From IMG/VR virus record IMGVR_UViG_3300042288_000528, positions 1 through 29,525 of that record: 29,525 nucleotides of DNA. The stretch is one strand, 5' to 3'. The position numbers and the translations under genes are program-made. The notes under the pieces are model-generated. The model had not been told where the DNA came from. It did no database searches and saw only the letters and a program-made list of their open reading frames with translations. The stretch's first letter is position 1; each line of letters begins with the position of its first letter. The stretch is from a virus. This document shows positions 604 to 24,636 of this stretch, piece after piece.

Positions 604-606
604 ATA

Positions 607-626: not shown

Positions 627-645
627 ATCACATTGAAGGACAATC

Positions 646-948: not shown

Positions 949-1187
949 TGGCTCCTGTTGGCTACTCAAGCGTTGCCAACCAAGCCAATACCTCGGATGG
1001 CTTTGCATTAGGTGTTGGCGCCCAGAATGTTATCGGTGGCACCGACTACGGCCTTGATGTTGGTGATAATGGCGTAGTCGATACTTATGGCACCTTGCCG
1101 CCAACCACTTTTTATATCCTGGATGAGACTTCTCCAGGGTATGTGCTGCAAGAAGACAACAGCAAAATTGTTTTGGAGCAATCGTAA
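948..1187 (+). CDS. Small virion-associated protein (hypothetical)
   Basis: 79 residues. ATG 948 overlaps the preceding TGA (TGATG), which favours this start over an in-frame TTG three bases earlier. The N-terminal half is Gly/Asn/Asp-rich (GVGAQNVIGGTDYGLD). The protein ends in a short hydrophobic/acidic segment, YVLQEDNSKIVLEQS, of the 'ILLESGD..L.E' style often seen at the ends of small phage structural proteins. No enzyme motif is visible. Position between two beta-rich structural genes suggests a virion role; the function is unknown. Confidence 0.55.
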   Translation: MAPVGYSSVANQANTSDGFALGVGAQNVIGGTDYGLDVGDNGVVDTYGTLPPTTFYILDETSPGYVLQEDNSKIVLEQS

Positions 1188-2176: not shown

Positions 2177-2177
2177 G

Positions 2178-3248: not shown

Positions 3249-3589
3249 TGCCAATGTTTCTTGACACGGAGGGCTACAGCGACATCGCTATTGGTATTTG
3301 CGATCGTTGCCGCATGAAGCGCCCTCACGCCACCCTGGGACCTGACATCAACTTCCCAGGGCTGATGGTGTGTGAAGAAAATTGCAGAGACGAGAAAGAT
3401 CCGTATCGCCTGCCAGCCCGGCAAACTGAGCGCATTAACCTGCGCTTTCCAAGGCCTGATGTATCGGTGGCCGCAATCCAGGATAATCTGGTGACAACGG
3501 ATCAGCAAAATGTCATTGTCTCGACGGAAGGCAACACCCAGACGCCTGAGAACAATGGGAACCTTGATGGAATAGCGGTGTCACCCTAA
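3248..3589 (+). CDS. Zinc-ribbon virion-region protein
   Basis: 113 residues, ATG 3248 overlapping the previous TAA. The N-terminal third holds two cysteine pairs, C18-x2-C21 and C42-x3-C46, in a CDRCRMKRP...GLMVCEENC arrangement that fits a zinc ribbon. I recall small proteins with the motif CDRCG....GLMVC..C followed by an Arg/Pro segment next to tail-accessory genes in many uncultured phages. Residues 60-113 are Asn/Thr/Gln-rich and probably disordered. The gene sits between the adaptor-like protein and a fibre, suggesting a structural or assembly part rather than a transcription factor, but this is not shown by the sequence. Confidence 0.6.
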   Translation: MPMFLDTEGYSDIAIGICDRCRMKRPHATLGPDINFPGLMVCEENCRDEKDPYRLPARQTERINLRFPRPDVSVAAIQDNLVTTDQQNVIVSTEGNTQTPENNGNLDGIAVSP

Positions 3590-5406
3590 TGGCCAATCAA
3601 ACCATCACCCAGTTACCGACCGCCGATGCCCTCACGGGCACCGAGCTTGTGCCCATCGTTCAGGATGGTGGCACCGTCAAAACAACGGTGGCAGATATTG
3701 CCGCGGTTCCTGTAACCAACTACAGCTTTGTCACAGCAACCAGTGAAGGCTCACTTTCACAGTCACGGCAATTAAGCACTTCAGGCGGTGGTTTAACGCT
3801 TACGGACAACGGTGCTGGCTCAACCCTTGTTCTAAGCCTCTCAGGAGCCGCTGCAAGCCTCGTAGCCGCCGGGACGGGTATTCAGGTCAAGACCAGCGCA
3901 ACAACGCTCACAGCGCGCTCTATAGCGGCTGGAACGGCAGGTATTAGCGTTGCTGATGGCGATGGCGTTGCTGGCAACCCAACCGTGTCACTTTCTGGCT
4001 TGGTTTTGAACCTGGCACAGTCTTCAGGCGTTGGTCTTTTGTCGCGCACTAGTGGCAACAGCATTGGCGTTGTCACGCTCACGGGTACGGCTGATGAGAT
4101 TGATGTAACCAATGGCACGGGTGATGGTGCTAATCCCACCGTGGGATTGGCTGACAATCCGGTAGTGCCGGGCACTGCATCGTTGACCTTGCCCAAAGGC
4201 AACACATCGCAAAGGCCTGTCGCACAAGACGGGATGATTCGCTTTAACACGCAGTCATCGCAGTTTGAAGGTGCAATTGGCGGCACTTGGACTAATGCAC
4301 TAGGCGCGTCAGGCGTTTCTGGCTTCTCAGGTTTTAGCGGCACATCTGGCTTTAGCGGTTTTTCCGGCACTTCAGGATTTAGTGGGGTATCGGGGGCGTC
4401 AGGCACCTCGGGATTTTCTGGCGTCTCTGGATTCTCAGGTGTATCTGGGTTTTCAGGCGTGTCTGGTTACAGCGGCGACAATCCTGGCTCAAGTGGCGTC
4501 TCAGGATTCTCGGGCGCATCAGGCGTCTCAGGATTTTCTGGAATTTCAGGCTTTAGTGGCTTTTCTGGGCTGGGTCTTTCTGGTGTTAGTGGATTTTCAG
4601 GCTTTAGTGGTGTCTCAGGATTCTCTGGAGTTAGCGGTTTTTCAGGATTTTCTGGCACATCAGGATTTAGCGGTGTCTCAGGATTTTCTGGTGTCTCGGG
4701 TTTTTCTGGCACTAGCGGGACATCTGGAACGTCAGGGTTTAGCGGCATTTCTGGCTACAGCGGTGACAATCCAGGATCAAGTGGTGTGTCAGGGTTTTCA
4801 GGTGCTAGTGGCACTTCAGGGTTTAGCGGCACCTCGGGATTCTCAGGCACCTCCGGGTTTTCTGGGACTTCAGGGTTTTCAGGCGTCTCTGGCACGAGTG
4901 GATTTTCTGGTGTTTCTGGTTTTAGTGGAGTGTCAGGATTCAGTGGTGCATCGGGCACAAGTGGCTTCTCAGGAACTTCTGGGTTCTCAGGTAGTGGCGT
5001 TTCAGGGTTCTCTGGGACCTCTGGATTTTCGGGCGCGTCAGGTACAAGTGGATTTTCTGGTACGAGCGGATTTTCTGGCACATCAGGATTTTCGGGTGTT
5101 TCAGGTTTTAGCGGCGCATCAGGCACGAGTGGCTTCTCGGGGACGAGCGGATTTTCAGGCACCAGCGGCTTTTCTGGAGCTTCTGGCACTTCTGGCTTTT
5201 CAGGCACTTCAGGCTTTTCGGGTACTAGCGGATTTTCTGGTGCCCCACCGGCAACTGTGGCCACAACGGCCAGCACTTCAGCAGGCTTTATTCTGTTTGC
5301 GGCAAGCTCATCAACTGGCAATCAGTCCGTTTTGGTTGATGCAGGCTTGTCAGTTAATGGGAGCACCAATGCAATTACTGGCGGGGTTGATGGTGGGACT
5401 TTCTGA
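3589..5406 (+). CDS. Collagen-like tail fibre with Gly-x-Ser triplet shaft
   Basis: 605 residues, ATG 3589 inside TAATG. Residues 1-38 are the fibre N-terminal module (TITQLPTADALTGTELVP) shared with the protein at 1187. Residues 40-238 are a beta-rich Ser/Thr/Gly region with two related copies of a G(D/N)GDG..NPTVxL motif and an IRFNTQSSQFEG element typical of phage fibres. Residues 239-552 form a Gly-x-Ser triplet shaft (x mostly Phe, Val, Thr, Ala, Ile), with almost no Pro or Lys. Residues 553-605 are a short beta cap ending in ITGGVDGGTF. There are no cysteines. Collagen-like triplets in phage fibres make trimeric triple helices. A receptor-binding fibre or its shaft is the likely role. 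The glycosyltransferase gene overlaps its stop codon (TGATG). Confidence 0.8.
   Translation: MANQTITQLPTADALTGTELVPIVQDGGTVKTTVADIAAVPVTNYSFVTATSEGSLSQSRQLSTSGGGLTLTDNGAGSTLVLSLSGAAASLVAAGTGIQVKTSATTLTARSIAAGTAGISVADGDGVAGNPTVSLSGLVLNLAQSSGVGLLSRTSGNSIGVVTLTGTADEIDVTNGTGDGANPTVGLADNPVVPGTASLTLPKGNTSQRPVAQDGMIRFNTQSSQFEGAIGGTWTNALGASGVSGFSGFSGTSGFSGFSGTSGFSGVSGASGTSGFSGVSGFSGVSGFSGVSGYSGDNPGSSGVSGFSGASGVSGFSGISGFSGFSGLGLSGVSGFSGFSGVSGFSGVSGFSGFSGTSGFSGVSGFSGVSGFSGTSGTSGTSGFSGISGYSGDNPGSSGVSGFSGASGTSGFSGTSGFSGTSGFSGTSGFSGVSGTSGFSGVSGFSGVSGFSGASGTSGFSGTSGFSGSGVSGFSGTSGFSGASGTSGFSGTSGFSGTSGFSGVSGFSGASGTSGFSGTSGFSGTSGFSGASGTSGFSGTSGFSGTSGFSGAPPATVATTASTSAGFILFAASSSTGNQSVLVDAGLSVNGSTNAITGGVDGGTF
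4303..5244 (+). repeat. Gly-x-Ser coding repeat (collagen-like shaft), about 942 bp
   Basis: About 104 consecutive triplets, nearly all Gly-x-Ser. The phase is broken at a GYSGDNPGSSG element present twice (near 4468 and 4750, one extra residue), and by two triplets short of one residue (GFSGLGLSG near 4560, GFSGSGVSG near 4990). Ser, Gly and Phe codons are scrambled, so the repeat is strong in protein and weak in DNA. Confidence 0.9.
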
Positions 5407-6692
5407 TGAATTACTCGATTGTCATCCCGACTTACAACCACTGTGAGGACCTGCTCAAGCCCTGCCTAGAGTCCATCTTTAAGTACACTGATATGACCGA
5501 TGTTGAGTTGGTCATATCAGCAAATGGTTGCACTGATAGCTCGGCTGACTATCTCAAGGCGCTTAAAGCACAGTTTGAAAGCATTGGATTTGATGATCAC
5601 TTAAAGGTGGTGTGGAGTGATGCGCCACTTGGTTATGCAGGCGCATCCAACGCCGGCATCGCAGCATCAACAGCAGACAAGATTGTGCTGCTCAACAACG
5701 ATGTGATCTTGCTGCCCCAGGCTAAAAGCCAATGGCTGCAAATGCTTGATGAGCCTTTGAGCAACCCCAAATGCGGCATTTCAGGTGCCTTGCGGTTATT
5801 TTCTGAAGTCACTCAGCGCGAGTTCATTGTGTTTTTCTGCGCGATGATACGCAGGCAGGTCTTCAACCAGATTGGCCTGCTCGACATCAGTTTTGGCGTT
5901 GGTGGCAGTGAAGACATTGACTTTTGTGTTCGCGCTGAAAAAGCCGGCTGGGATATTAGCGAGTGCTTCCCAAAGACTTGGGATGGTGTGCAGTGGGTTA
6001 ATTGCTTCCCCATGTATCACAAGGGTGAGGCAACCATGCATGACCCTGGCTTAGTACAAAACTGGAGCCAGATCTTTGCGAGAAACACCTTAAAGCTTGC
6101 TAAGCAGCATAACTTGGATTGGTATCGCTGGAAGCTCTCCAACAATTACGAGCGTGCTGTGTTTTTGAAAGGTGATGAAGTATTTCCGCGGGAGATGCGG
6201 CGCTATCAGTGGGCTGCTAAGCACATGCGGGGCACGAAAGTATTAGAGATTGGCTGCTCAACGGGTTACGGCGTACAGTTCATGCCGCAAAGCGTTAACT
6301 ACACAGGGCTGGATTACGACCCCATCATTGTGGATGTGGCTAACGAGCAGGGCTGGAGTCCAAGCGCACAGTTTGTTCATGCTGACATCAACAAGATTGA
6401 GCTTGGTCAGTACGACACGATCATTGCCTTTGAGGTGATTGAGCATCTGGACAACGGCTTGGAAGTGCTACAAAAGCTTAAGAACCAGTGCAAGACGCTG
6501 CTTTTTACGGTTCCATGGAACGAGCCGCCAGGCTTTTGGGGTGAGCATCACAAGCTTCACGGCTTGAATGAGTCGCACTTTCCTGGCTTTGAGTTCAATT
6601 ACATTGACGAGCACGGCAACATTACGCAGCAGGTCAGGCCTATCAATGAGCAAAACCGTTTCAACCTCATGATTGGATACTGGCATGCCTAA
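5406..6692 (+). CDS. GT2 glycosyltransferase fused to class I SAM methyltransferase
   Basis: 428 residues, ATG 5406 overlapping the fibre's TGA. Residues 1-225 are a GT-A fold family 2 glycosyltransferase: start YSIVIPTYNHCEDLL, a nucleotide-binding NNDV at 97-100 in the DXD position, and an ED motif in GGSEDIDFC at 166-174. Residues about 250-428 are a Rossmann methyltransferase: SAM-binding motif VLEIGCSTGYG at 279-289, an acidic LDYD next-strand end, and AFEVIEHLD around 340-347. The pair would transfer a sugar from a nucleotide donor and methylate an acceptor, perhaps the sugar itself. No membrane segment or signal peptide is present, so it acts in the host cytoplasm. Position directly after the fibre suggests the fibre as substrate; host surface glycan is an alternative. 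Confidence 0.85.
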   Translation: MNYSIVIPTYNHCEDLLKPCLESIFKYTDMTDVELVISANGCTDSSADYLKALKAQFESIGFDDHLKVVWSDAPLGYAGASNAGIAASTADKIVLLNNDVILLPQAKSQWLQMLDEPLSNPKCGISGALRLFSEVTQREFIVFFCAMIRRQVFNQIGLLDISFGVGGSEDIDFCVRAEKAGWDISECFPKTWDGVQWVNCFPMYHKGEATMHDPGLVQNWSQIFARNTLKLAKQHNLDWYRWKLSNNYERAVFLKGDEVFPREMRRYQWAAKHMRGTKVLEIGCSTGYGVQFMPQSVNYTGLDYDPIIVDVANEQGWSPSAQFVHADINKIELGQYDTIIAFEVIEHLDNGLEVLQKLKNQCKTLLFTVPWNEPPGFWGEHHKLHGLNESHFPGFEFNYIDEHGNITQQVRPINEQNRFNLMIGYWHA

Positions 6693-7653
6693 AGTGCTTT
6701 GCTCCATATCAACGCGAGGTCGGACGGACAGCACGCTGCCGATGGCCATTCAAGCCATCATGAATCAAACGCGCAAGCCCGACAAGCTTGTCATTTTTGA
6801 TGACAACGACGAGCAAAAAGACATGCGCGAAGATCCGATTTATTCGCGCTTGCTTTGGATGCTAAGTGCCAAAGGCATTGCTTGGGACTGGCTTTGGGCC
6901 GGCAAGAAAGGCCAGCATCACAATCATCAAATGGCCAACTGGATGGGTTACGAGTGGGTGTGGCGCGTGGATGATGATGCGCTGCCAGAGCCTGGCGTAC
7001 TGAATAACTTGCTCAAGCACATTGGACCCAAGGTTGGCGCTGTTGGTGGCTCAGTGCTCATGCCAGGCCATGACTTTGAACATGCCAAGGCCACGGGCAA
7101 GATTGAATACATTGATCACGAGCCAAATCCACAGTGGAAGCATATTGAAAAGGTCCAGGAAGTCGATCACTTGCACTGCACTTTTTTGTACCGTGCAGGG
7201 GTTTATGACTACAACACAGGACTGTCTCGGGTGGCGCATCGTGAAGAGACGTTATTCAGTTGGGGCTTGAAGCGTAAAGGCTACAAATTACTGATTGTGC
7301 CCAACGCGATAACTTGGCACTTAAAAGCACCCTCGGGCGGCATTCGGATGAACAGTCGGACTGAGATGTTTGCCCATGACGAGCAGATCTTTCGCAACAC
7401 CCTAGCGCACAGGGACCATACAATAGTGGTCCTGGATAACGGCATGGGCGATCACATTGTGTTTAAGCATGTACTGCCCGATGTTAGCAATCCTATTGTG
7501 TTTGGATGCTATCCCGAGATAGTGCCCTGCAGGCCAATCGCTGAAGCAAAAGCGCTTTTTGGTGACATTGATATGTTCAATGTGTACAGCAAGATGATGC
7601 GCTGGAATTGGCAGGAAAGCCTTGAGAGCGCCTATCGAAAGCTTTACTTATGA
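6685..7653 (+). CDS. GT2 glycosyltransferase with a GT9 N-domain-like C-terminus
   Basis: 322 residues from ATG 6685, which overlaps the upstream stop by 8 bases (ATGCCTAA); a TTG 12 bases earlier is possible but less likely. Residues 1-235 are a GT2 domain: KVLCSISTRGRTDSTLPMA, KPDKLVIFDDND, and a DXD motif VDDDA at 95-99. From about residue 248 the sequence changes to a second domain with IVVLDNGMGDHIVFKHVLPDV, VFGCYPEIV and EAKALFGDIDMFNVYS. This resembles the N-terminal Rossmann half of heptosyltransferase-type (GT9) enzymes, which carry a G-x-GD-h loop after the first strand. The next gene supplies what looks like the missing GT9 half. The GT2 assignment is firm; the GT9 half is by pattern and by the neighbour. 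Confidence 0.8.
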   Translation: MPKVLCSISTRGRTDSTLPMAIQAIMNQTRKPDKLVIFDDNDEQKDMREDPIYSRLLWMLSAKGIAWDWLWAGKKGQHHNHQMANWMGYEWVWRVDDDALPEPGVLNNLLKHIGPKVGAVGGSVLMPGHDFEHAKATGKIEYIDHEPNPQWKHIEKVQEVDHLHCTFLYRAGVYDYNTGLSRVAHREETLFSWGLKRKGYKLLIVPNAITWHLKAPSGGIRMNSRTEMFAHDEQIFRNTLAHRDHTIVVLDNGMGDHIVFKHVLPDVSNPIVFGCYPEIVPCRPIAEAKALFGDIDMFNVYSKMMRWNWQESLESAYRKLYL

Positions 7654-8108
7654 TTGTCATTGCGCCATTTGCCAAGAAGCTACCAAGTGGGAAGATGAAC
7701 CCCAAGGATTATCCATTTTGGGAAGAGCTTATCCCGATGCTGCCCAAGCCTGTCATCCAGGTTGGGGTTGATGGCGAACCACGCTTGGTTGAAGACTTCC
7801 GCAAAAACTTGCCATTGAATGCTTTGCGTCATTTGATCCTTCAGTGCGACACCTGGATTTCATGCGATAGTTTCTTGCAGCACTTTGGTTGGGATTTGGG
7901 CAAGCCTGGCATCGTGCTGTGGTCAGTATCGGACCCCAACATCTTTGGTCACCCTGAGAACATCAACCTGCTCAAGGACCGCGCTAATTTAGCGCCCAAC
8001 CAGTTTTTATGGTGGGACTTCTGTGAGCATGACCCCAACAAGTTTGTCGCGCCAGAGGTTGTTGCAAAGGCTGTTCAAAGCCTTTTGTACCTTGAACGCG
8101 CAGCCTAA
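7650..8108 (+). CDS. GT9 (heptosyltransferase-type) C-terminal domain, free-standing
   Basis: 152 residues, ATG 7650 overlapping the previous TGA by 4 bases (ATGA). The sequence follows the C-terminal Rossmann half of GT9 enzymes: an opening strand IVIAPFAKKLPSGK, then WEELIPMLPKPVIQVGVDGEP, LNALRHLILQCDTWISCDSFLQHFGWDLGKPGIVLWSVSDP. That last stretch corresponds to the 'aDlfig.DSGp.HlAaalgkP.v.lfG.tdP' donor-binding region of the family. Complete GT9 proteins are about 320-350 residues; this is half. Because the preceding gene ends in a GT9 N-half-like domain, the two products probably pair to form one active site with sugar-nucleotide donor specificity unknown. It is expected to be translationally coupled to its neighbour. 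Confidence 0.7.
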   Translation: MIVIAPFAKKLPSGKMNPKDYPFWEELIPMLPKPVIQVGVDGEPRLVEDFRKNLPLNALRHLILQCDTWISCDSFLQHFGWDLGKPGIVLWSVSDPNIFGHPENINLLKDRANLAPNQFLWWDFCEHDPNKFVAPEVVAKAVQSLLYLERAA

Positions 8109-8132
8109 AAATGATCAAATCGACTGATTGAC

Positions 8133-8137
8133 GGAGG
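8133..8137 (+). promoter_or_regulatory. Shine-Dalgarno GGAGG for the 8142 fibre gene
   Basis: A perfect GGAGG ends 4 bases before ATG 8142, in one of the few real gaps (8109-8141) of the operon. This gene therefore starts a new translation block rather than being coupled to the glycosyltransferase genes. No convincing -35/-10 promoter was seen in the gap. Confidence 0.65.
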
Positions 8138-8141
8138 CCTT

Positions 8142-8993
8142 ATGCCAGCCACAAATTACACCCCGATTTTGCTTTATAGAAGCTCAACTGCAGCAGCAGC
8201 GCCGTCAACGGCTAATCTTAATGCAGGCGAGCTTGCCATCAATTACAACGATGGCAAGTTATTTTACAAGGACAATGCTGGAACCCCTGCCATTCAGTTA
8301 ATTGGTGCTCGACTAGGTACCAATACAACGACGGGTGGAACAGTTGCAACAGCACTTGGCTCCGAGCTTAACAAGACGGGCGGCTTAGTCTCCCAATCTG
8401 GAACGCTAGCCTCTAGCGCGCTTTTATTGGGCGGCGGGTCAGGTGTAGCCATTACTTCAACCACCACAGGCACAGGCGTAGTAACGGCGGTTGGTAACGC
8501 AGTCAATACCACGGGCGGTTTGGTTACACAATCAGGAACCTTAACGGCTAATAATATCTTGCTTGGTGGTGGTGCAAGCACGGCCATTTCTTCATCAAGC
8601 CTTTTAGCCACTTCGGCTGCGGTAACTTCGGGTACTTACATTAAAGCAATTGGGTATGCCGATACGGTTGTGGCGCTTGGTAACACGGGTACAGCAATAA
8701 ATCTGGATGTTGTGAGCGGCGGCGTATTTACGGCAACACTTACAGGAAATGCGACGATTACACTTCGTTATCCCGTGTCTTCTGGCTCATCATCGTTTAC
8801 GCTCATTCTCACAAATGACGGAACAGCAGGTCGCACGGTGGCTTGGGCTGGCGGTTCGTTTAGGTTCCCTGGTGGTGCAGCATCCTTATCTCGCACAACG
8901 ACAGCTAATGCTATCGACATTTGGGTCTTCTTCACGCCAGATGGCGGGACGACTTGGTATGGCAATATCGCCATGAAGAATATGACAGCTTAA
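8142..8993 (+). CDS. Tail fibre / fibre-like virion protein
   Basis: 283 residues. Residues 3-45 match a fibre N-terminal module common in aquatic phages: YTPILLYRSSTAAAAP, then LNAGELAINYNDGKLFYKD. Residues 50-170 are Thr/Gly/Ser-rich with two related passages, each running GGLV(S/T)QSGTL.(S/A)...LLGGG followed by (V/T)AI(T/S). Residues 180-283 form a compact beta domain (FTATLTGNATITLRY, FTLILTNDGTAGRTVAWAGGSFRFPGG, WVFFTPDGGTTWYGN) of the kind found at the tips of side fibres. It has no cysteines and no signal peptide. A second or alternative host-contact fibre is the likely role, possibly stacked on the fibre from 3589. Confidence 0.7.
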   Translation: MPATNYTPILLYRSSTAAAAPSTANLNAGELAINYNDGKLFYKDNAGTPAIQLIGARLGTNTTTGGTVATALGSELNKTGGLVSQSGTLASSALLLGGGSGVAITSTTTGTGVVTAVGNAVNTTGGLVTQSGTLTANNILLGGGASTAISSSSLLATSAAVTSGTYIKAIGYADTVVALGNTGTAINLDVVSGGVFTATLTGNATITLRYPVSSGSSSFTLILTNDGTAGRTVAWAGGSFRFPGGAASLSRTTTANAIDIWVFFTPDGGTTWYGNIAMKNMTA

Positions 8994-8994
8994 T

Positions 8995-8999
8995 AGGAG
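8995..8999 (+). promoter_or_regulatory. Shine-Dalgarno AGGAG for the 9007 gene
   Basis: AGGAG lies 7 bases before ATG 9007 in the 13-base gap after the fibre gene. It gives the helical protein, and the oxygenase genes coupled behind it, their own strong ribosome entry site. Confidence 0.65.
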
Positions 9000-9006
9000 T
9001 AAGAAA

Positions 9007-9240
9007 ATGGCTTTAACCACAGAGCAGCAAGCACAAGTAGATATTCAGTTGGCTGTCGAGAACGCACGACATGCTAATCAAATGCAAGCCGAGGCAGTTC
9101 GTGCAAAGCTTGAAGCAGTCCGTTTAGCAAAAGAAACGCTGATTGAGAACGCTCGCAGTAAACCTGTTGATTCTCGTGATGTATCAGCGGCTGATATTCA
9201 GGCTTTTGCTCAAACGCTTGTGTCGTACATCAACGGATGA
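9007..9240 (+). CDS. Small helical (coiled-coil-like) protein
   Basis: 77 residues. Nearly the whole protein is predicted helix: residues 5-52 are rich in Ala, Gln, Glu and Lys (EQQAQVDIQLAVENARHANQ, then KLEAVRLAKETLIENARSKP) with heptad-like spacing. Residues 56-77 (RDVSAADIQAFAQTLVSYIN) form a second short helix. I recall closely similar small proteins beside fibre and oxygenase genes in aquatic phage genomes, but no function is established to my knowledge. Its stop overlaps the first oxygenase start (ATGA), so the two are coupled. A scaffold or chaperone-like partner for the fibre or oxygenases is possible but is inference. Confidence 0.65.
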   Translation: MALTTEQQAQVDIQLAVENARHANQMQAEAVRAKLEAVRLAKETLIENARSKPVDSRDVSAADIQAFAQTLVSYING

Positions 9241-9830
9241 TTCAGGGTTTTGCTTATTTTCCTGCCATCGTTTATCGCGATGAGCATCCTGAGTGGGTTG
9301 ATTATGCGCTGAAGATTTCACAGAAATACTTTGACGCACAGCCTAATCAGGGTGCTATGTGCCAGACGGGGCATATGGGGAATGATCCTGACATGAAGTT
9401 TTTAACGGATTACTTGCAGTCAACCAGCCATGACATCTTGGCAAGTCAAGGCTATGCAATGGATCGGTATGAACTTTATGTCTCGGGCTTGTGGGGGCAG
9501 GAAGTCAAAGGGCATGGCGGCACGAATGTGCATGTGCATAAGCACAGTCAACTTTGCGGTTGGTTCTTTTTAGAAGCCCCTGAAGGTGGCTCATACCCTG
9601 TGTTTTATGACACTCGTGCTAACAAGCAAATGATTGAGCTTGACTTTGCGCCAAGCGATGAAGTGACTAACGCAACTTCAACTGTTCACTTTAATAACAT
9701 TGTTCCAGGTACTGTACTACTAGCCAACTCATGGATGCAACATCAGCTAACCCCAAACATGACAGATAAGCCAACCAAGAGTATCCACTTTATCGTTTCG
9801 CACAGGGATAAGCCATGCAGTACATGCTGA
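9237..9830 (+). CDS. 2OG-Fe(II) oxygenase-like protein (2OG-FeII_Oxy_5 type)
   Basis: 197 residues, ATGA overlap with the previous gene. The core fits the PF13759-type double-stranded beta helix. The first metal-binding segment is NVHVHKHSQLCGWFFLEAPEGG (split here as NVHVHKHS at 98-104 and the following strand), with His at 99, 101 and 103. It is followed by PVFYDTRANKQ, a PGTVLLANSWMQHQL segment with the distal His169, and SIHFIVSHR as the closing strand. Enzymes of this fold use 2-oxoglutarate and O2 to hydroxylate a substrate. Which of the clustered His residues bind iron cannot be fixed by eye, and the usual HxD is not obvious. First of four adjacent oxygenase genes between two virion genes; substrate unknown. 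Confidence 0.7.
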   Translation: MIQGFAYFPAIVYRDEHPEWVDYALKISQKYFDAQPNQGAMCQTGHMGNDPDMKFLTDYLQSTSHDILASQGYAMDRYELYVSGLWGQEVKGHGGTNVHVHKHSQLCGWFFLEAPEGGSYPVFYDTRANKQMIELDFAPSDEVTNATSTVHFNNIVPGTVLLANSWMQHQLTPNMTDKPTKSIHFIVSHRDKPCSTC

Positions 9831-10402
9831 CACCTTATGCCGAGTCGGTTGAGCCTTTTGCTTGGTGGGAGGGTGCGTTTAATGATCAAGAGCTTAATTG
9901 GTTACAAGAGCGAGCTATCAAAGCCGATCAAAGAGCGCAAGTTGGTGGTGGGTCAGACCCAGAGCGTTTAGCGCAAATTCGCCGCTCTCATGTGTCATGG
10001 ATGGACTGCAATCAAGAAACCGAGTGGGTGTTTCGCAAGCTAGCCCATGCTATCTCGTCGCTTAATTCTCAGTTTTATCGGTTTGATCTCACTGGATTTG
10101 GTGAGGCTTTACAGCTTACTAATTATGACCAATCCGAGAATGGTATGTATGGTTGGCATCAGGATTACGGTGGCAGGCGCAGTGTAAGTAGAAAGCTTTC
10201 AGCAGTGCTTCAATTGACCGATCCAGCACAGTACGAAGGTGGCAACCTTCAGATTATGACTAGCGGTAACCCTATGAATGTGCGTAAACAGCGCGGGCTA
10301 ATTGCGGTGTTTCCATCCTATACCCTTCATCAAGTAACGCCCGTAACTCAAGGCAGCAGGCAAAGTCTTGTGGCATGGCTTTCAGGACCGGCATTTCGAT
10401 GA
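9815..10402 (+). CDS. PKHD-type 2OG-Fe(II) oxygenase
   Basis: 195 residues, 16-base overlap with the preceding gene. This is the clearest oxygenase of the four. The iron triad is visible as H115-x-D117 in YGWHQDYGG and H172 in YTLHQVTPV, and the 2-oxoglutarate-binding Arg is R182 in GSRQSLVAWLSG. Intervening strands RKLSAVLQLTDP and YEGGNLQI and the RGLIAVFPSY segment match the PKHD hydroxylase family (prolyl/lysyl hydroxylase-like fold). Expected reaction: hydroxylation of a protein side chain or small molecule with decarboxylation of 2-oxoglutarate. It is a cytosolic enzyme with no signal peptide. Gene order suggests a virion protein substrate, which is inference. Confidence 0.88.
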   Translation: MQYMLTPYAESVEPFAWWEGAFNDQELNWLQERAIKADQRAQVGGGSDPERLAQIRRSHVSWMDCNQETEWVFRKLAHAISSLNSQFYRFDLTGFGEALQLTNYDQSENGMYGWHQDYGGRRSVSRKLSAVLQLTDPAQYEGGNLQIMTSGNPMNVRKQRGLIAVFPSYTLHQVTPVTQGSRQSLVAWLSGPAFR

Positions 10403-10995
10403 ATATTGATTACAACGGATTCATTGGCATTTATAACAATGTGTACCCTGAAGGGTATTGTCAGCATTTGATCAATGAATTTGATCGTTTGGAAAGGGAT
10501 AGCGCAGGGTCTAACCGCTGGCAGTCTGAAAAAGCACCTGAGTCAAGGAAAAATGACTACCAAATTGGTTTAGATTTGCGTGGTCATAGTACCCATGACT
10601 TTGAAGATAGACGCATCGTGCCGATGTTTTTTGATGGGTTGCAGGCTTGCTATGACGAATACACACGAAAGTTTTCAACGCTTGCTGACGGTAAGATCCG
10701 CGCTAATGTGATGAAGATGCAGCGCACTCCTCCTGGTGGTGGCTATCATGTGTGGCATGGCGAACAAGGTGGGGGTGATCACGCGGCGCGAGTGCTGGTT
10801 TATATGCTTTATCTCAATACCCTTGAGCCACATGAAGCAGGTGAGACTGAATTCTTGTATCAGCAACAACGCTTTCGTCCCACTGAAAACCAAATAATCT
10901 TGTGGCCTGCTTCATTTACGCATACGCATCGAGGTAATACAGTGTTTGGTGAGCGGTCTAAATATGTTGTGACGGGGTGGTTTTACTATGACTAA
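10399..10995 (+). CDS. 2OG-Fe(II) oxygenase with HxE-type iron motif
   Basis: 198 residues from ATG 10399 (ATGA overlap with the previous stop); an ATG 24 bases upstream in frame is less likely. The core has YHVWHGEQGG with H120-x-E122 as the probable first iron motif (Glu in place of the usual Asp). Then come a RVLVYMLYLNTL strand, ETEFLYQQQRF, a PTENQIILWPASFTHTHRG segment with the distal His at 175 or 177, and ERSKYVVTGWFYYD, in which R186 or K188 may bind 2-oxoglutarate. The overall pattern is that of the P4H-like phage oxygenases common in marine phages. It differs clearly from its neighbours, so this is not a simple tandem duplication. Substrate unknown. Confidence 0.82.
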   Translation: MNIDYNGFIGIYNNVYPEGYCQHLINEFDRLERDSAGSNRWQSEKAPESRKNDYQIGLDLRGHSTHDFEDRRIVPMFFDGLQACYDEYTRKFSTLADGKIRANVMKMQRTPPGGGYHVWHGEQGGGDHAARVLVYMLYLNTLEPHEAGETEFLYQQQRFRPTENQIILWPASFTHTHRGNTVFGERSKYVVTGWFYYD

Positions 10996-11575
10996 GCCAG
11001 AAGAATTTGAGCAATACGGATGTGTGCTCGTGGAAGGTTTTCTTGATCCGCTAACGGTAAAAACCATATCCATGTACATGGAAAACAAAATTCGTCGCGA
11101 TGGGTGGCGAGGAAAAGTAATGGACGACCCGGTTACTAAACTTGCTTATTACGCTGATCCTTTAATTGAAACGGTGCTTCAAGCAAGCCTGACTTTAGTA
11201 ACCGAGACCTGCGGGAAAGAGCTTGATCCGACTTACTCTTACATGCGCGTGTACCAACCTGGAGAAGAGCTTGAGCCACATGTTGATCGCCCGTCATGTG
11301 AAATTAGCGTAACAGTCAATGTGGCTTCAAAGGGTACGCCCTCATCAATCTGGATGCACTATAAAGACAATGCGCCACACGCCTACACACTTAATCCCGG
11401 TGATGCGGTTGTTTATAAAGGCTGCGAAGCTAAGCACTGGCGCAAGCCTTTTGAAGCAGATCAGTTGAATGTGCAATTCATGTTGCACTATGTTGATAAA
11501 CATGGACCCCATGCTGAGTGTAAATTTGATACACGCCCAAATCTTGGCTTTCCTTTTGAAACGCGGGGGTCATAA
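10988..11575 (+). CDS. 2OG-Fe(II) oxygenase-like protein
   Basis: 195 residues, 8-base overlap with the preceding gene. A jelly-roll oxygenase core is visible: YSYMRVYQPGEELEPHVDRP with H98-x-D100, strand ISVTVNVASKG, IWMHYKDNAPH, a LNPGDAVVYKGCEAKHWRKPF segment with the distal His150 and Arg152, and a closing strand NVQFMLHYVD. The N-terminal 60 residues are helical. The C-terminal tail after residue 175 includes one Cys and is not part of the fold. It is the last of four oxygenase-like genes and its stop overlaps the start of the glycine-rich tip-like protein. Of the four it is the most divergent from the PKHD pattern, but the HxD...H spacing supports activity. Confidence 0.75.
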   Translation: MTKPEEFEQYGCVLVEGFLDPLTVKTISMYMENKIRRDGWRGKVMDDPVTKLAYYADPLIETVLQASLTLVTETCGKELDPTYSYMRVYQPGEELEPHVDRPSCEISVTVNVASKGTPSSIWMHYKDNAPHAYTLNPGDAVVYKGCEAKHWRKPFEADQLNVQFMLHYVDKHGPHAECKFDTRPNLGFPFETRGS

Positions 11576-12477
11576 TGCCTGCTGGTACACCTAAAGTTAC
11601 GATGTTTGGGGGCAAGGCACTTGTCCCTGGTGGCTGTCAAACCTTTAATGCGCCTGGAACTTTTACGGTTCCTACAGGGGTAACAAAAATTAATCTCGTT
11701 GGTTACGGCGGTGCTGGTAATCCAGGTAACGCTGGCAACCCTGGCGGTAGGGGGGCTGGTGGTAGTGGGGGCAAAGGAGCTAATGGATGTCCTAACCCGA
11801 TATATCTAACACCCGGTGGCGCTGGCGGTGCTGCAGGCAGTTCCGGTAACTCAGGATCGGCAGGAAATGCGGGGTCTAGTTCGACGGGGTTTTGCAAAAC
11901 TTTCCCTGGGGGAAGTGCGGGTAATGGCGGCACTGGTGGTACTGTTGGAAACACAGGAGGTACAGGCGGGGCAGGAAATCGCTTTGCACCCGGTGGCGGT
12001 CCCGGTGGATGCCCTGGCGGGGGTGCAGGAGGGAGTTATGGCAGCACCATTCACCCTCAATTTTATCGTACCTTTGCCGGTGGCGGCGGTGGAGGGGCTG
12101 GTTTATGTAATCCAGGATCTGCGGCCAGTGGCTTTTCTCCAGGTGCAGGAGGTAACCCAGGAGGTGGTCCTGGCGGTATTGGTTTTTATTGCCAACAGAA
12201 TAACCCGTGTGGTTCATGCCCTCAGACTGCCGTCGGTGTTAAAGGATCTGCCGCAAATGTTTCGGGTGCGGGGGGTGGAGGTGGAGGTGGTGCATCAAGT
12301 TCCTTCTGCAACGGCGGGGGAGGTGGTGGCCGAGGGAATGCCGGTAATGCTGGCAACCCAGGCAACCCAGGTTCAAATGCTAATCCAACATCATTTAATT
12401 GCGTATCTGTAAATCCAGGCGGTTCGTACCCTGTAACGGTTAATGGACAGATCAAAGTATCCTGGAATCCGCAATGA
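11575..12477 (+). CDS. Glycine-rich tail tip / adhesin-like protein
   Basis: 300 residues. Residues 18-45 form the short N-terminal strand pair FTVPTGVTKINLVGYGGAG typical of glycine-rich phage tip proteins. Residues 45-280 are dominated by GG, GNPGNAGNPG and GGAGGSGG runs interrupted by short non-glycine patches. This is the composition of polyglycine-II helix bundles seen in T-even-type gp38 adhesins, where the variable loops contact the receptor. Residues 285-300 (YPVTVNGQIKVSWNP) close with a strand. Ten cysteines are scattered through it, unusual for a phage fibre. It follows four oxygenases and precedes a tail assembly chaperone-like gene two positions on, which supports a fibre-tip role. 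Confidence 0.75.
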   Translation: MPAGTPKVTMFGGKALVPGGCQTFNAPGTFTVPTGVTKINLVGYGGAGNPGNAGNPGGRGAGGSGGKGANGCPNPIYLTPGGAGGAAGSSGNSGSAGNAGSSSTGFCKTFPGGSAGNGGTGGTVGNTGGTGGAGNRFAPGGGPGGCPGGGAGGSYGSTIHPQFYRTFAGGGGGGAGLCNPGSAASGFSPGAGGNPGGGPGGIGFYCQQNNPCGSCPQTAVGVKGSAANVSGAGGGGGGGASSSFCNGGGGGGRGNAGNAGNPGNPGSNANPTSFNCVSVNPGGSYPVTVNGQIKVSWNPQ

Positions 12478-12983
12478 AAAAAGAAACCAAAAAAGCCTTT
12501 GATGACCTGCGTTCTAAACAGGATATAGCTAATGCCACGGGCGAACTTACTCGTGCCAGATCAATAGCAGTGGGCACGGCGTTTGGTGGCATTACTGAGC
12601 TTTCTATGCGAGGCAATGATGGGTCTCATTTATGGTGTTTGATGCAGCCTGTTGAAGTCATTGAACTTATTCATCAGCTTGCTGCTAATGTAGGGTGTCA
12701 TATTCACATTCAACCGCGCCGAGATTTTTCAGCTTGGCGTGATTGGAAATACACCGAGGAAGAGTTAGCGCATTATCGTGGCAATCAAATTGGTCCTTGG
12801 CAAGCAGGATCAGGCTGGGCACCTCATGTTAACGATATGGCACCTCATCAAGACAAAGGCGCAGTGCTGCCGCCTCCTGAAATGCAGCCGGGGTTAAAGA
12901 TTGAAAGGAATAATCATGAGCCTGTGGCAACTGAAAAAACTGTCAACCGGCGAAGCGCTAAACGAGCCGCAGCCACTGCCTGA
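12474..12983 (+). CDS. Hypothetical protein of the fibre region
   Basis: 169 residues, ATGA overlap with the glycine-rich protein. I do not recognise it. The N-terminus is charged and helical (KKETKKAFDDLRSKQD). Residues 30-85 look like an alpha/beta domain (GTAFGGITELSMRGNDG, LWCLMQPVEVIELIHQLAANVGCHIHIQPR). Residues 85-125 are Trp/His/Gly-rich (YRGNQIGPWQAGSGWAPHVNDM), and the C-terminal 40 residues are Pro- and then Lys/Arg/Ala-rich and probably disordered. The last 68 bases are shared with the next gene in another frame. Placement between a tip-like protein and a chaperone-like protein suggests involvement in fibre assembly. Confidence 0.55.
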   Translation: MKKETKKAFDDLRSKQDIANATGELTRARSIAVGTAFGGITELSMRGNDGSHLWCLMQPVEVIELIHQLAANVGCHIHIQPRRDFSAWRDWKYTEEELAHYRGNQIGPWQAGSGWAPHVNDMAPHQDKGAVLPPPEMQPGLKIERNNHEPVATEKTVNRRSAKRAAATA

Positions 12984-13302
12984 AAACTGGGGGCCGATCT
13001 TCGGTCTTCATGGCTTTATGGATCGACTTGGTGATTTGTCATGGTTAGGTGAAGCCTATAACGACCAAGGCTGGGTGCAGGTTGGCGAAGCGCCACCGTC
13101 TCCGGTAGTGGCAACCAAAGCGCAGCTTGAATGGGATCGCGCCAAGAAAATGCTGCAAGAGTCAGATTGGTCGATGCTACCTGATGTGCCCATGACGGCT
13201 GGTGATAAAGCTGCGTGGATTGAGTATCGGCGTGGGTTGCGTGAGATTCGACTGCAAGTTGGTTTTCCAGATAGCATTGAATGGCCGAAGGGGCCAAAAT
13301 AA
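12916..13302 (+). CDS. Phage tail assembly chaperone-like protein
   Basis: 128 residues from ATG 12916, preceded by AAAGGA, and overlapping the upstream gene by 68 bases; an in-frame TTG at 12901 is less likely. Residues 70-128 match the tail assembly chaperone family I recall as Phage_tail_APC (PF16778): WDRAKKMLQESDWSMLPDVP, AAWIEYRRGLREIRLQVGFP and IEWPKGP. These proteins, related to the Tfa-type fibre chaperones, help fold or trimerise tail fibres and tend to be encoded just after the fibre they serve. Residues 1-60 are a Trp/Leu/Gly-rich region without a clear family. The nearest candidate client is the glycine-rich protein at 11575. Confidence 0.75.
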   Translation: MSLWQLKKLSTGEALNEPQPLPENWGPIFGLHGFMDRLGDLSWLGEAYNDQGWVQVGEAPPSPVVATKAQLEWDRAKKMLQESDWSMLPDVPMTAGDKAAWIEYRRGLREIRLQVGFPDSIEWPKGPK

Positions 13303-14027
13303 TGTTTTGGTTTTGCAAGCCTAAAATTCTTAACATTGACTTTTTTACAACTAGGGAAGACATTTTTCATAGTGCCAAGCCAAAAAAAGCGGCTCAATTT
13401 TTTCCAAAATGGTTCAAAAACTTACCAAAACCATTTTTTGAGGAAGATCGCAACGCGCCATTAGTGCTTAAAAAAACCATAAAACATTGCCCCGCATTTA
13501 TAAATTTGTATGCTTCTGGATTTATGTTTCCATTATGGTCTGATTTGAACATAGAAGTTAAAAGTGAAACTTATAGGTATCAATTTGCAGATAATCAATC
13601 AACGGTAAATTTTCACTCAAAAAAACAATTTTGTGGTTTTGATTTTGAAGATAGTCATCTTCAAATAAAGCTATTAAACCCGTGGCACATGATTACAAAC
13701 AGAGATGTAAATATGCTTTGGACCGCTCCGGTATGGAATAACTTTGGCGTTGAGGATATTGTTATTGCTCCCGGTGTGTTTTCAGCATACAAAGGTTTAT
13801 ATGAAGCAAATATAAATATGTTCGTCAAAAAAAATGAAACAAAAATTTATCAATTAAATTTTGGAGACCCTCTGGTTCATATTGTTCCATTAACAAATAT
13901 GCCAATTAAACTCCACTATCATTTAGTTTCACAAAAAGAACTTGAAAGCAGATGGTCTAAGTTTCCGATAAAACTAATGCAATTAGATGGGTACAGACGC
14001 GCAAGAAAATTATGCTCACATGCCTAA
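13302..14027 (+). CDS. DUF6065-like protein, AT-rich gene
   Basis: 241 residues from ATG 13302 (TAATG junction); an in-frame ATG at 13281 would extend into the previous gene. The sequence has an ordered set of features: AAQFFPKWFKNLPKPF near residue 30, LKKTIKHCPAFINLYASGFMFPLWSDLNIEV around 55-85, IKLLNPWHMITNRDVNMLW around 125-142, and GDPLVHIVPL near 195. These match a phage protein family of unknown function that I recall as DUF6065, found near fibre genes of T4-like cyanophages. The base composition is strikingly AT-rich, with long A and T runs, unlike every neighbour. No known catalytic motif is visible. A late-acquired accessory gene is likely. Confidence 0.65.
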   Translation: MFWFCKPKILNIDFFTTREDIFHSAKPKKAAQFFPKWFKNLPKPFFEEDRNAPLVLKKTIKHCPAFINLYASGFMFPLWSDLNIEVKSETYRYQFADNQSTVNFHSKKQFCGFDFEDSHLQIKLLNPWHMITNRDVNMLWTAPVWNNFGVEDIVIAPGVFSAYKGLYEANINMFVKKNETKIYQLNFGDPLVHIVPLTNMPIKLHYHLVSQKELESRWSKFPIKLMQLDGYRRARKLCSHA

Positions 14028-14262
14028 CTATACGATTCGGTTTAACAAAAGCCGAGGGCAACCAGGGCGAGGAACCATAGAGCATGTATGGAGAGTTTTT
14101 GAAGATGGACGCGAACACCTTGCACGGCACTTGCAAATCCGAGTGCCGACTTGGAGCGAGTTGGATGCCAACGGTCAGGACTACAACATTGCCTGCCGAG
14201 GCAAGATGCTTTGGTTTGCCGACACAGATACAGCGGTGATTATTGATGAATCGAACTTGTGA
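14020..14262 (+). CDS. Small hypothetical phage protein
   Basis: 80 residues from ATG 14020, overlapping the previous stop by 8 bases (ATGCCTAA); an ATG 33 bases upstream in frame is less likely. The protein reads as a compact alpha/beta fold: NYTIRFNKSRGQPGRGT, then HVWRVFEDGREHLARHLQIRVPTWSE, and GQDYNIACRGKMLWFADTDTAVI. Proteins of this pattern occur in T4-like and aquatic phage fibre regions, but I know no function for them. Base composition returns to that of the rest of the region. Its last bases overlap the cysteine-cluster gene. Confidence 0.6.
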   Translation: MPNYTIRFNKSRGQPGRGTIEHVWRVFEDGREHLARHLQIRVPTWSELDANGQDYNIACRGKMLWFADTDTAVIIDESNL

Positions 14263-14653
14263 CGGATGTTCAGAGTGCTGTAAAGGTTGGCTTAGGGGTC
14301 ATGCGATGGGGCATGACTTTTACCCTGGCAAGAAGTGCTATTACCTGCAAAAAATATGCTCAATTTATGAAAACCGCCCGATTGATCCATGCCAAAGTTA
14401 TAAGTGTCATTGGTTAGCTACTGATGATTTACCGATGTGGATGCGCCCCGATTTAAGCAACGCGTTAGTCACACAAAGAAGCAATAACGGGCACTCATGG
14501 TTAGAAGTGGCAGAGTGCGGCAGCAAAATGGATTCCGAGGTCTTGTCATGGCTTGTCATTTGGGCTTTGAATCAAGGCAAAAACTTGAAGTATCAAATCA
14601 ATGGTGGCTGGAGCAAGATAGGCTCTAAAGAGTTTCTGGAGGCGCAAGTGTGA
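14246..14653 (+). CDS. CxxCxxCC-type cysteine-cluster protein (YkgJ-like)
   Basis: 135 residues from ATG 14246 (a TTG three bases earlier is in frame). The N-terminus has CDGCSECCKGW at 5-15, the CxxCxxCC signature of the YkgJ family of putative zinc- or iron-chelating proteins. It is followed by KKCYYLQKICSIYENRPIDPC and YKCHW, where the next conserved cysteines lie. Eight to nine cysteines in the first 60 residues support a metal cluster. The rest is a mixed helical domain (SEVLSWLVIWALNQGK). The family's biochemical role is not settled; a link to metal supply or to Fe(II) enzymes has been a natural guess. Close proximity to four Fe(II)-oxygenase genes is notable but not proof. Confidence 0.78.
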   Translation: MNRTCDGCSECCKGWLRGHAMGHDFYPGKKCYYLQKICSIYENRPIDPCQSYKCHWLATDDLPMWMRPDLSNALVTQRSNNGHSWLEVAECGSKMDSEVLSWLVIWALNQGKNLKYQINGGWSKIGSKEFLEAQV

Positions 14654-20840: not shown

Positions 20841-21088
20841 CGATCGCACTGGTTTATGACCCCAGGTATCACACCTTTGACTCATGGGCATCGCTTATGT
20901 GCGAGGCTTATGCTGGCCAGCAACTGCAAATTCCTGGGCCTGATGTCGAGTGGCAGTCATGGGCTGCCGGCCTTAAAGCGATCGATATTTTTGCCAATGA
21001 AGCGATTCCTGAGCCTTATGGTTTTGAGGAGTGGTATGACTGGGCAACCGCAGTGGTCAATGCTGTGAACTCGAGGCCAGGTCAATGA
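20837..21088 (+). CDS. Small acidic, Trp-rich protein (hypothetical)
   Basis: 83 residues, ATGA overlap at both ends (with the nozzle-like gene and with the 1183-residue gene). It is acidic and unusually rich in Trp and Ala (FDSWASLMCEAYAGQQL, VEWQSWAAGLKAIDIFANEA, FEEWYDWATAVVNAV), with alternating helical stretches and a single Cys. Similar small proteins sit between nozzle and internal virion genes in aquatic podoviruses, to my recollection, but no function is known to me. The tight coupling suggests a fixed stoichiometric partner of one of the flanking virion proteins. Confidence 0.6.
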   Translation: MTIALVYDPRYHTFDSWASLMCEAYAGQQLQIPGPDVEWQSWAAGLKAIDIFANEAIPEPYGFEEWYDWATAVVNAVNSRPGQ

Positions 21089-24000: not shown

Positions 24001-24636
24001 ACGCCAAGGGCTGGAGTGCCAGCATCGCCACAGGCAGGCCCCATCACAGGACCAGAGATTGCACGCTTGCAAGGCAAGATGCTTGAATCAAAAGTGCTGC
24101 AAGAAAGACAGATTGATCCTCTGGCAGCCATGAAACAAAGGATTGAAGAGATGAACTCGATTGACCCTATGCTCGCAGCCGTGCTATCACAACGATTGGG
24201 TTTGCCACAACCGCAACCTGAGACGCCCACCTACACTTATGGCCAGGAAACATCGATCGATGACATCCTGGGACTGACTAATCGCGGGTACGCTGAAGGT
24301 GGCTATGTCGAACCCTTAAAAGCCACCGGCGGTGCCATGAACCCTCAGTTTATGTTCCGTGCTGGTGGCTCACGCGAAGACTTCCGCGATGGCAAGCATG
24401 TGGCTGGTGATGGTGATGGTCAGTCCGATGACATTCCTGCATGGCTAGCTGATGGTGAGTTTGTTTTCCCAGCCGATGTGGTTTCAGCACTCGGAAATGG
24501 CTCAACGAAGGCAGGAACCGATAAACTCTACAAGATGATGCATGAGATCCGCGCACGGGCCAGGTCCACCAAGGAAAAGGACCTGCCACCCCCAGCGCAT
24601 AAGTCTCCACTCGACTACCTCAAAAAGGGTAAGTAA
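21085..24636 (+). CDS. Large virion protein with Gly-x-Ser shaft, poly-Pro and DGQSDD C-terminus
   Basis: 1183 residues. An approximately 55-residue unit occurs twice near the N-terminus (12-66 and 123-177), each with GGIGL(D/E)AMN.NI, (T/N)PTE and a (G)VS.EDI.RATGKS core. The middle (200-780) is Ala/Gly-rich and helical, as in internal or ejection proteins. Residues 785-810 are a Gly/Pro linker, 811-943 a Gly-x-Ser/Gly-Val-Ser tract, and 945-963 nineteen prolines in a row. The C-terminus has [14 protein letters not shown] and [30 protein letters not shown], a signature widely found in phage virion proteins, often at the end of tape-measure-like or ejection proteins. It lies between nozzle and internal virion genes. 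Exact role uncertain. Confidence 0.7.
23515..23973 (+). repeat. Gly-x-Ser repeat tract followed by 19-codon proline run
   Basis: About 130 codons of mostly GVSG/GISG units (with three DGK or TEK interruptions near the start), then 19 proline codons at 23917-23973. At DNA level three different 9-bp units each occur as three perfect tandem copies: GGAGTTTCT at 23659-23685, GGCATCTCT-type at 23785-23811, and GGCGTCTCG at 23830-23856. This shows recent slippage or duplication. Confidence 0.9.

Follow-up and report, generated by a model that had tools for sequence, protein, structure and literature searches.

The closest described counterparts of the locus reported here, a block of tail and enzyme genes in the IMG/VR virus record IMGVR_UViG_3300042288_000528, are collagen-like proteins of bacteria and viruses, a glycosylated mycobacteriophage virion and a bacterial adhesin heptosyltransferase. 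In BclA-type proteins of Bacillus, as here, a collagen-like repeat (Gly-X-Y) frequently has a hydroxy amino acid at Y, and their stalk is glycosylated (PMC8968730). Collagen-like proteins of Gram-positive bacteria typically have Thr at Y and Pro at X (PMC8968730). Mimivirus, a virus of eukaryotes, modifies its own collagen-like protein (cited in PMC8968730). Mycobacteriophage Che8 has glycan-bearing virion proteins and phage glycosyltransferase (GT) genes (cited in PMC11256854); its glycans are on the major capsid proteins, and the sections consulted mention no collagen-like substrate. TibC, a bacterial autotransporter heptosyltransferase (BAHT), is GT-B-like and heptosylates several Ser of a repetitive surface adhesin, an instance of bacterial Ser heptosylation of adhesins from ADP-heptose (PMC4358343).

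In both substrate and enzymes, the two gene modules described below are unlike BclA, mimivirus collagen and the capsid glycosylation of Che8. BclA is a spore protein, whereas the protein here is a phage fibre with Ser at Y, hardly any Pro and its own GT genes adjoining, and its glycosylation is predicted from that neighbourhood. Collagen modification in mimivirus is hydroxylysine chemistry; the fibre tract here has no Lys, and the oxygenases accompany another protein. The substrate proposed for the phage GTs is a collagen-like fibre, unlike the capsid proteins of Che8. TibC has a beta-barrel, a thumb and a four-Cys iron finger (PMC4358343), whereas the phage GT9 is a half-domain paired with a GT2; 25 aligned GT9 halves share a single invariant Cys, not the four conserved iron-binding Cys of TibC. 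In the titles and abstract starts of the open-access literature we found nothing joining phage Gly-X-Ser fibres to GTs, or 2-oxoglutarate (2OG) oxygenases to glycine-rich tips.

The window, i.e., the whole stretch of DNA analysed, is the entire record of 29,525 bases and possibly a genome fragment. It carries a long plus-strand series of tail and lysis genes, in which the open reading frames (ORFs) of the block overlap or are tightly spaced. This block consists of two separable modules, side by side among the tail genes and each associated with a tail protein of its own. Module A (3589-8108) comprises a Pro-poor (Gly-X-Ser)n fibre, a GT2-methyltransferase, a GT2 and a GT9 half-domain. Module B (8142-13302) comprises a fibre, four 2OG-Fe(II) oxygenases, a glycine-rich tip and a chaperone. 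These boundaries, like the gene identities and the co-inheritance described below, are observed. An earlier sequence-only reading had placed its genes in one coupled block, and the ORF layout, Pfam, PHROGs and alignments bear this out. Its limits of 5406-14653 were too narrow: the Gly-X-Ser fibre at 3589-5406, just 5' of them, belongs to the system. It spoke of three GT genes; these amount to two GT2 domains and what appears to be a single GT9 divided between two ORFs. The picture also includes a second Gly-X-Ser protein (21085-24636), which is absent from that reading.

Module A: a Gly-X-Ser fibre and adjoining glycosyltransferases

The features of module A and its possible second substrate are the following.

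3589..5406, plus strand: (Gly-X-Ser)n collagen-like fibre of 605 residues, likely substrate of module A (Pfam Collagen, 5.6e-43; composition and codons; tail-fibre PHROGs)
5406..6692, plus strand: fusion of a GT2 and an S-adenosylmethionine (SAM) methyltransferase (PF00535, 3e-17; PF13489, 1.7e-10)
6685..7653, plus strand: GT2 with GT-A fold, its C-terminal part read as a GT9 N-lobe (weak Pfam GT2 match, 5.3e-5; alignment; AlphaFold model)
7650..8108, plus strand: C-terminal half of a GT9, heptosyltransferase family (PF01075 positions 172-218 of 247, 4.7e-4, just under the cut-off)
21085..24636, plus strand: second protein with a Gly-X-Ser tract, 1183 residues, possible module A substrate in trans (Pfam Collagen, 7e-10; composition; relatives)

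The repeat of the first fibre is collagen-like, with Gly at every third residue over 105 counted triplets. Ser occupies Y in 100 of these and Pro in one; X is F, T, V or A in 94, and its eight commonest residues, none of them Pro, account for 103. Pro-rich X and Y positions, as in triple-helix-stabilised collagen, were not found in the 105 triplets, and the tract holds one Pro and no Lys in all. The Ser at Y are encoded by 73 TCN and 27 AGY codons. These codon families are not joined by a silent single change, and the use of both indicates that Ser itself is maintained by selection, beyond mere copying. Most tracts examined in relatives resemble that of the window, with Thr or Pro in part in some loci (e.g., L236 and L244).

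The start codon of the GT2-methyltransferase gene overlaps the stop codon of the fibre gene. The next product, the GT2, has an invariant acidic metal-binding motif (D96 D97 D98) in the alignment, as expected of a GT-A enzyme. Its C-terminal part has invariant G253, G255, D256 and H257 (G-x-GDH), a stretch that we take, by eye and from the family motif, to be the GT9 N-lobe. The AlphaFold model of this protein (pLDDT 88, pTM 0.85) has as best Foldseek match the polypeptide GalNAc-transferase GalNAc-T3 of T. gondii (8ujg, E 4.5e-10, TM 0.58); a chain of the LH3/ColGalT1 complex ranks second (TM 0.44, root-mean-square deviation 21.9) and ColGalT1 ranks 24th. Its sequence profile gave two chance-like matches in the PDB. 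The GT9 half has a relative in L255 that matches PF01075 more strongly (1.7e-8).

We fetched IMG/VR relatives with OX4 (the fourth oxygenase), the GT2-methyltransferase, the downstream and upstream adaptor-like genes, the GT2 and the tip, and compared their gene content with the 36 window proteins by BLASTP. Each scan comprised the best 80 matches (80 of 99 for OX4, 80 of 228 for the tip, 80 of at least 506 for the GT2), and counts from the GT2 scan and both adaptor-gene scans are among the matches listed. IMG/VR loci (numbered L) are fragments, many of them overlapping cuts of one contig. Loci sharing exact 400-mers were joined in clusters, one of which is a large single-linkage chain of 73 loci. 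We counted an ORF as Gly-X-Ser if it had 8 or more triplets in a row spaced by Gly and, in short runs, 8 or more GxS/T/A triplets; for the count of GT loci against oxygenases, 10 triplets in a row were required.

The GTs are inherited together with Gly-X-Ser fibres. The GT2 was present in 175 loci (68 clusters), and in the 42 clusters showing at least 2.5 kb upstream a Gly-X-Ser ORF lay within 6 kb in 39 and within 150 bp in 31. Counted by loci, 109 showed this upstream length, with 94 and 68 in the respective distances. When 3 kb were visible on both sides (29 clusters), all 22 clusters with structural homologues of the window had a Gly-X-Ser fibre, as did five of the seven without them. One of these five is the isolate Methylophilaceae phage P19250A, which encodes a Gly-X-Ser protein of 1201 residues, then a methyltransferase-only gene (aligned to residues 225-426 of the 428 of the fusion product), the GT2 and the GT9 half. 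The constant core of the module is thus the GT2 with the GT9 half; upstream of it the GT2-methyltransferase is found in 47 clusters, the methyltransferase alone in 14 (by a size rule that counts truncated genes too) and neither in the L356 group. Among 50,697 phage records the GT2 and GT9 half occur in P19250A only, and a pattern-based scan of 84,980 species genomes for them returned two contigs of metagenome-assembled genomes.

The association was also visible at a fixed genomic position. We compared 60 loci in which the upstream adaptor-like gene is at least 60% identical to that of the window and which are closed by a downstream marker or extend at least 6 kb downstream, several of them sharing contigs. 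Fibre tract and GTs were both present in 31, both absent in 25, the tract stood alone in four, and GTs alone were never found. In 44 rows that differ in adaptor gene or state, the window included, the respective numbers were 17, 24, three and zero. Fisher tests gave 4.6e-13 (loci) and 1.7e-9 (rows), values that ignore kinship and are descriptive only. On a DNA tree of the 44 rows there were six independent contrasts in the tract; the GTs followed it in a mean of 5.3 of these and never moved against it (median p 0.0625). Taking the GTs as the lead gave eight contrasts, with 5.8 concordant and none opposed (median p 0.031). Fibre genes without the tract often retain the N-terminal part, which indicates that the stalk type switches together with the enzymes. 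In L261, L262, L266 and L267 the adaptor protein is 98-99% identical to that of the window, and both fibre tract and GTs are absent. Three of the fibre-only loci (L280, L296 and L330) end at contig ends.

The second Gly-X-Ser protein, encoded far from the GTs, gives a hint of the same association. Its tract has 31 triplets with Ser at Y in 30. Among complete ORFs of this distant protein in loci that show the GT region, the tract occurs in five of six GT-positive loci (L137, L153, L162, L163 and L172; four of five distinct products, the L162 and L163 products being identical) and in none of 12 GT-negative ORFs. The latter come from 11 loci in nine clusters, and one of the loci, L165, shares a 101.8-kb contig with L162. 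The Fisher value is 7.0e-4, or 2.7e-3 without L163 and L165, relatedness being ignored. The test excluded eight GT-positive and seven GT-negative partial ORFs, as well as L130, L131 and L134, in which the tract is present on contigs that stop short of the GT region. Adjacency explains this association poorly. A long proline run lies directly 3' of the tract in the window and similarly in L137; no PPPP occurs in L153, L162 or L172. The contig shared by L162 and L165 (101,830 bases) has two adaptor-gene regions, only one with a GT module; either the assembly fused two phages or this is a double element.

Several observations weigh against glycosylation of the phage's own fibre by these enzymes. 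The record of L015 has no GT of the family, yet it encodes a Gly-X-Ser protein of great length in which Ser occupies Y in 338 of 347 triplets; a different GT2-like ORF lies at one contig end and the Gly-X-Ser ORF at the other. The fibre locus L297 is not cut by a contig end, and its 25.9-kb record has neither a GT2 relative nor a PF00535 match. No GTs of this kind were found in L015, L297 and L330, whose tracts resemble that of the window, so Ser at Y needs no such enzymes and proves no glycosylation. Conversely, L243, L255 and L260 carry GTs although no Gly-X-Ser gene lies within 6 kb of them (in L255, collagen repeats occur at another place), and L150 is GT-positive yet its copy of the distant protein lacks the tract. 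The comparison of that protein is a weak test, most of its 12 GT-negative versions being remote homologues (36-68%, over part), and the sign tests on the tree rest on six to eight contrasts. As for the enzymes, the named matches of the GT2-methyltransferase are GTs of polysaccharides or lipid-linked sugars, including a weak match to a GtrB-like O-antigen PHROG (9.6e-4), and it scores far under the cut-offs of the EpsD, MftF and PglI models. The GT9 half matches WaaC weakly in a profile comparison (E 0.07). Under VIA-align the GT2 model has the same Z of 18.4 with GalNAc-T2 and AvpGT, with many sugar-acting GT-A enzymes within 2; the fold therefore indicates GT-A, not the acceptor.

Some of these observations would be expected if the GTs, together with the oxygenases, remodelled the host envelope (O-antigen or capsule) to exclude other phages, the link to fibres reflecting shared host-range islands. 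This is the usual reading of phage GTs, as in the host-recognition clusters of pelagimyophages (PMC7029224) and the clusters of GT, kinase, nucleotidyltransferase and 2OG genes of cyano-jumbo phages (PMC7824862). The GtrB-like match fits it, and the GTs of L255 sit in a sugar-nucleotide cluster of a kind that a review of jumbo phages interprets as surface-polysaccharide modification (PMC7824862). Yet the GTs track one fibre chemistry, and are missing from near-identical backbones with another stalk in the same slot. Moreover, a search for membrane segments in the GTs found none, and neither a flippase nor a lipid-carrier enzyme appeared by name in the Pfam or PHROGs scans, which covered 21 of the 36 window genes. 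The sequence-only reading had offered envelope modification as its alternative; since the GTs track Gly-X-Ser fibres in many phages, glycosylation of the phage's own fibre fits better, and we consider the envelope explanation unlikely.

The modules could also be hitchhikers in a recombination hot spot of tail fibres, with no relation of enzyme to substrate. Tail-fibre islands do recombine blockwise, and adjacency alone would give co-inheritance. Nevertheless, the pairing of GTs and tract persists in most of the clusters that lack the shared structural genes and despite intervening genes (compare 39 with 31 of the 42 clusters above), and in a few cases the second, faraway Gly-X-Ser protein tracks the GTs too. 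Hitchhiking is for us decidedly improbable. We conclude from the gene association that the phage likely glycosylates its own Gly-X-Ser proteins.

Module B: four oxygenases, a fibre and a glycine-rich tip

The genes of module B, and the optional ones at its end, are listed below.

8142..8993, plus strand: tail fibre whose C-terminal domain is specific to module B (phrog_7760, 4.7e-9)
9007..9240, plus strand: small conserved ORF, 77 residues (60 of 61 loci and 39 of 39 clusters where visible)
9237..9830, plus strand: OX1, 2OG-Fe(II) oxygenase of PF13759/TIGR02466 type (2OG-FeII_Oxy_5, 3.6e-10; TIGR02466, 1.8e-14, under the cut-off)
9815..10402, plus strand: OX2, 2OG-Fe(II) oxygenase with HxD motif (2OG-FeII_Oxy_3, 2.4e-14)
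10375..10995, plus strand: OX3, 2OG-Fe(II) oxygenase with HxE motif (2OG-FeII_Oxy_3, 3.8e-10)
10988..11575, plus strand: OX4, 2OG-Fe(II) oxygenase (sub-threshold 2OG match, 9.4e-4; phrog_2954, 7.5e-43)
11575..12477, plus strand: glycine-rich tip with GN(P/A)G repeats, candidate partner or substrate of OX1-4 (model pLDDT 87.5; always with oxygenases in the loci seen)
12474..12983, plus strand: conserved module B ORF (74 of 74 loci, 47 of 47 clusters)
12901..13302, plus strand: tail assembly chaperone-like, Phage_tail_APC (PF16778, 8.7e-14; 44 of 44 clusters)
13281..14027, plus strand: optional passenger, phrog_7084 (6 of 35 clusters)
13987..14262, plus strand: small conserved module B ORF (53 of 54 loci, 34 of 35 clusters)
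14243..14653, plus strand: optional cysteine-cluster gene, phrog_9155 (5 of 30 clusters)

OX1 to OX3 score over the Pfam cut-offs of 2OG profiles, and of the HxD/E...H iron triad the HxD motif is present in OX2 and HxE in OX3, while H98, D100 and H150 of OX4 are invariant in 24 aligned rows. The OX4 profile had no match at E 1 among PDB sequences. Relatives of OX4 carry the name 'ferrochelatase' (PHROG 2954/3531; many records of cyanophages and pelagiphages), which is probably a misnomer and looks like a spreading misannotation. Two of the fibre-only loci have an ORF resembling a 2OG oxygenase (by eye, TIGR02466-like) near glycine-rich ORFs (L280:5938-6555 and L330:7119-7541); OX1-4 were not found there.

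The tip has no Pfam match, no PDB match by sequence at E 0.01 and no Foldseek match at E <= 0.001 (best 1.6e-2). Its model weakly resembles the fibre of cyanophage Pam3 (7ypx; Z 6.8 over 81 residues) and the glycine-rich domain of ALK/LTK (Z 5.2 over 74 residues of ALK); we know of no oxygenases accompanying either of them. In 27 rows of tip repeats, 384 of 836 Pro precede Gly (0.46, against 0.33 from composition) and 452 of 872 Asn follow Gly, so that the GN(P/A)G repeats are a plausible context for hydroxylation.

Gene order is well conserved. In the 17 OX4 loci compared it runs fibre, small ORF, OX1, OX2, OX3, OX4, tip, ORF and chaperone with small departures, e.g., in L015 the ORF precedes the tip. 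Where visible in OX4 clusters, the fibre is present in 39 of 39, OX1 in 43 of 43, OX2 in 45 of 45, OX3 in 46 of 46, the tip in 46 of 48 and the chaperone in 44 of 44. The genes at 13281 and at 14243 (the cysteine-cluster gene) were dropped as core parts given their low cluster counts. Starting from the tip, all 58 loci with 2.7 kb upstream had oxygenases (four kinds in 44, three in 13, two in one), and so did all 135 tip matches over all sets (64 clusters), which share contigs with the OX4 set. We rejected the idea that the tip alone, and not the fibre at 8142, is linked to the oxygenases: the C-terminal domain of this fibre had 107 matches with oxygenases and one without, whereas its N-terminal domain alone had none with and 84 without.

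The oxygenases do not follow the Gly-X-Ser fibres. In 17 OX4 loci, 6 kb or more of flanking sequence was visible on either side; three of them have a Gly-X-Ser protein (flags in L006, L018 and L070, which are the tip ORF itself, being excluded) and two have GTs. In the 15 whole records of OX4 phages searched, a GT2 relative was found in one (L069). The sequence-only reading proposed that the phage may hydroxylate and glycosylate its own Gly-X-Ser fibre or tip proteins. Glycosylation of the Gly-X-Ser fibre is well supported, by association in many phages; its hydroxylation is not, since oxygenases are regular in phages without such fibres, and their close relatives instead accompany the tip and the C-terminal part of the fibre at 8142. 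We interpret this as two enzyme and partner modules, not as one pathway on one fibre. A single pathway, with the Gly-X-Ser fibre first hydroxylated by the oxygenases and its new hydroxyls glycosylated by the GTs, as in the collagen of animals and of mimivirus (hydroxylated and glycosylated, cited in PMC8968730), would account for the presence of both enzyme sets in the window and in the L009 and L069 records, but we reject it as very improbable, because no oxygenase of these families was found in 43 of 46 GT2-methyltransferase loci and 70 of 78 GT2 loci (many on short contigs), most oxygenase loci have neither GT nor Gly-X-Ser, and the Ser hydroxyl already suffices for O-glycosylation.

In module B both the tip and the fibre are candidate substrates. 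The oxygenases are as tightly linked to the C-terminal domain of this fibre as to the tip, so they may act on either protein or on both. The association of tip and oxygenases holds in one direction only. Distant relatives of OX2 are found in 285 phage records and of OX4 in 156, mostly of cyanophages, and in the marine virus AG-345-E08 OX2 and OX4 are neighbours, with no tip match in 28 kb of its sequence. We regard action of the oxygenases on the tip or its fibre as evenly balanced.

Proposed chemistry of the two modules

For the substrates, donors and chemistry of both modules we infer the following. The GT2-methyltransferase, the GT2 and the split GT9 would act on Ser at Y of (Gly-X-Ser)n tracts poor in proline, namely that of the neighbouring fibre and possibly that of the 21085-24636 protein. 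The product would be short, perhaps methyl-capped O-glycans, built in the cytoplasm before assembly. Such glycans might stiffen, protect or mask a stalk without the usual stabilising prolines of collagen. In module B, the four different 2OG-Fe(II) oxygenases would act on the glycine-rich tip or the accompanying fibre, with Asn or Pro of the GN(P/A)G repeats as possible targets. This joint reading, with GTs modifying the Gly-X-Ser tracts and oxygenases modifying the tip or its fibre, seems to us somewhat probable.

The sugar donor of module A may be ADP-heptose. Heptose-like genes stand beside the GT cluster in two loci (L214:2748-4345 and L255:4662-6859); in both, these GT neighbours best match the NCBIfam HldE kinase domain and ADP-heptose 6-epimerase, and L255 additionally has a match to the HldE nucleotidyltransferase domain. 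With the GT9 half behind the GT2, the HldE/HldD-like neighbours make ADP-heptose the preferred donor. The matches are all under the curated cut-offs of NCBIfam, which speaks against it, and a scan of viruses with the heptose kinase of L214 recovered L214 alone. The assignment, made from sequence matches, is tentative, and we hold it less likely than not. A broader proposal is doubtful: many uncultured phages would have a dedicated system to O-glycosylate proline-free (Gly-X-Ser)n fibres from ADP-heptose, drawn from the host lipopolysaccharide pathway or phage-made, and some, this phage included, would also hydroxylate a glycine-rich adhesin tip with four oxygenases, both being virion-maturation chemistries undescribed in phages.

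Genomic setting and significance

Megablast of window positions 1-12000 against phages gave no match. Scans for promoters (5, against a shuffle mean of 13.3) and terminators (11, against 13.7) revealed no excess. Upstream of module A are a fibre-like gene (1187-1771) with a sub-threshold match to the BclA C-terminal domain (PF18573, 9.4e-4) and an SU10 adaptor-like protein (2178-3248) with a stretch resembling F5/8 type C (sub-threshold, 2e-4 and 3.5e-4). A small Endonuclease VII/HNH-like gene lies on the opposite strand (28703-28999, minus) at the end of the tail run.

GTs and 2OG oxygenases of aquatic phages are common 'auxiliary' genes, usually read as acting on the host surface or on metabolism (PMC7029224, PMC7824862). 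Here, each enzyme set tracks particular virion proteins across many genomes, and their relation is directly testable. If our interpretation is true, virion maturation would account for some of the auxiliary genes that such phages carry, and phages would offer a bacterial route to modified collagen-like and glycine-rich fibres.

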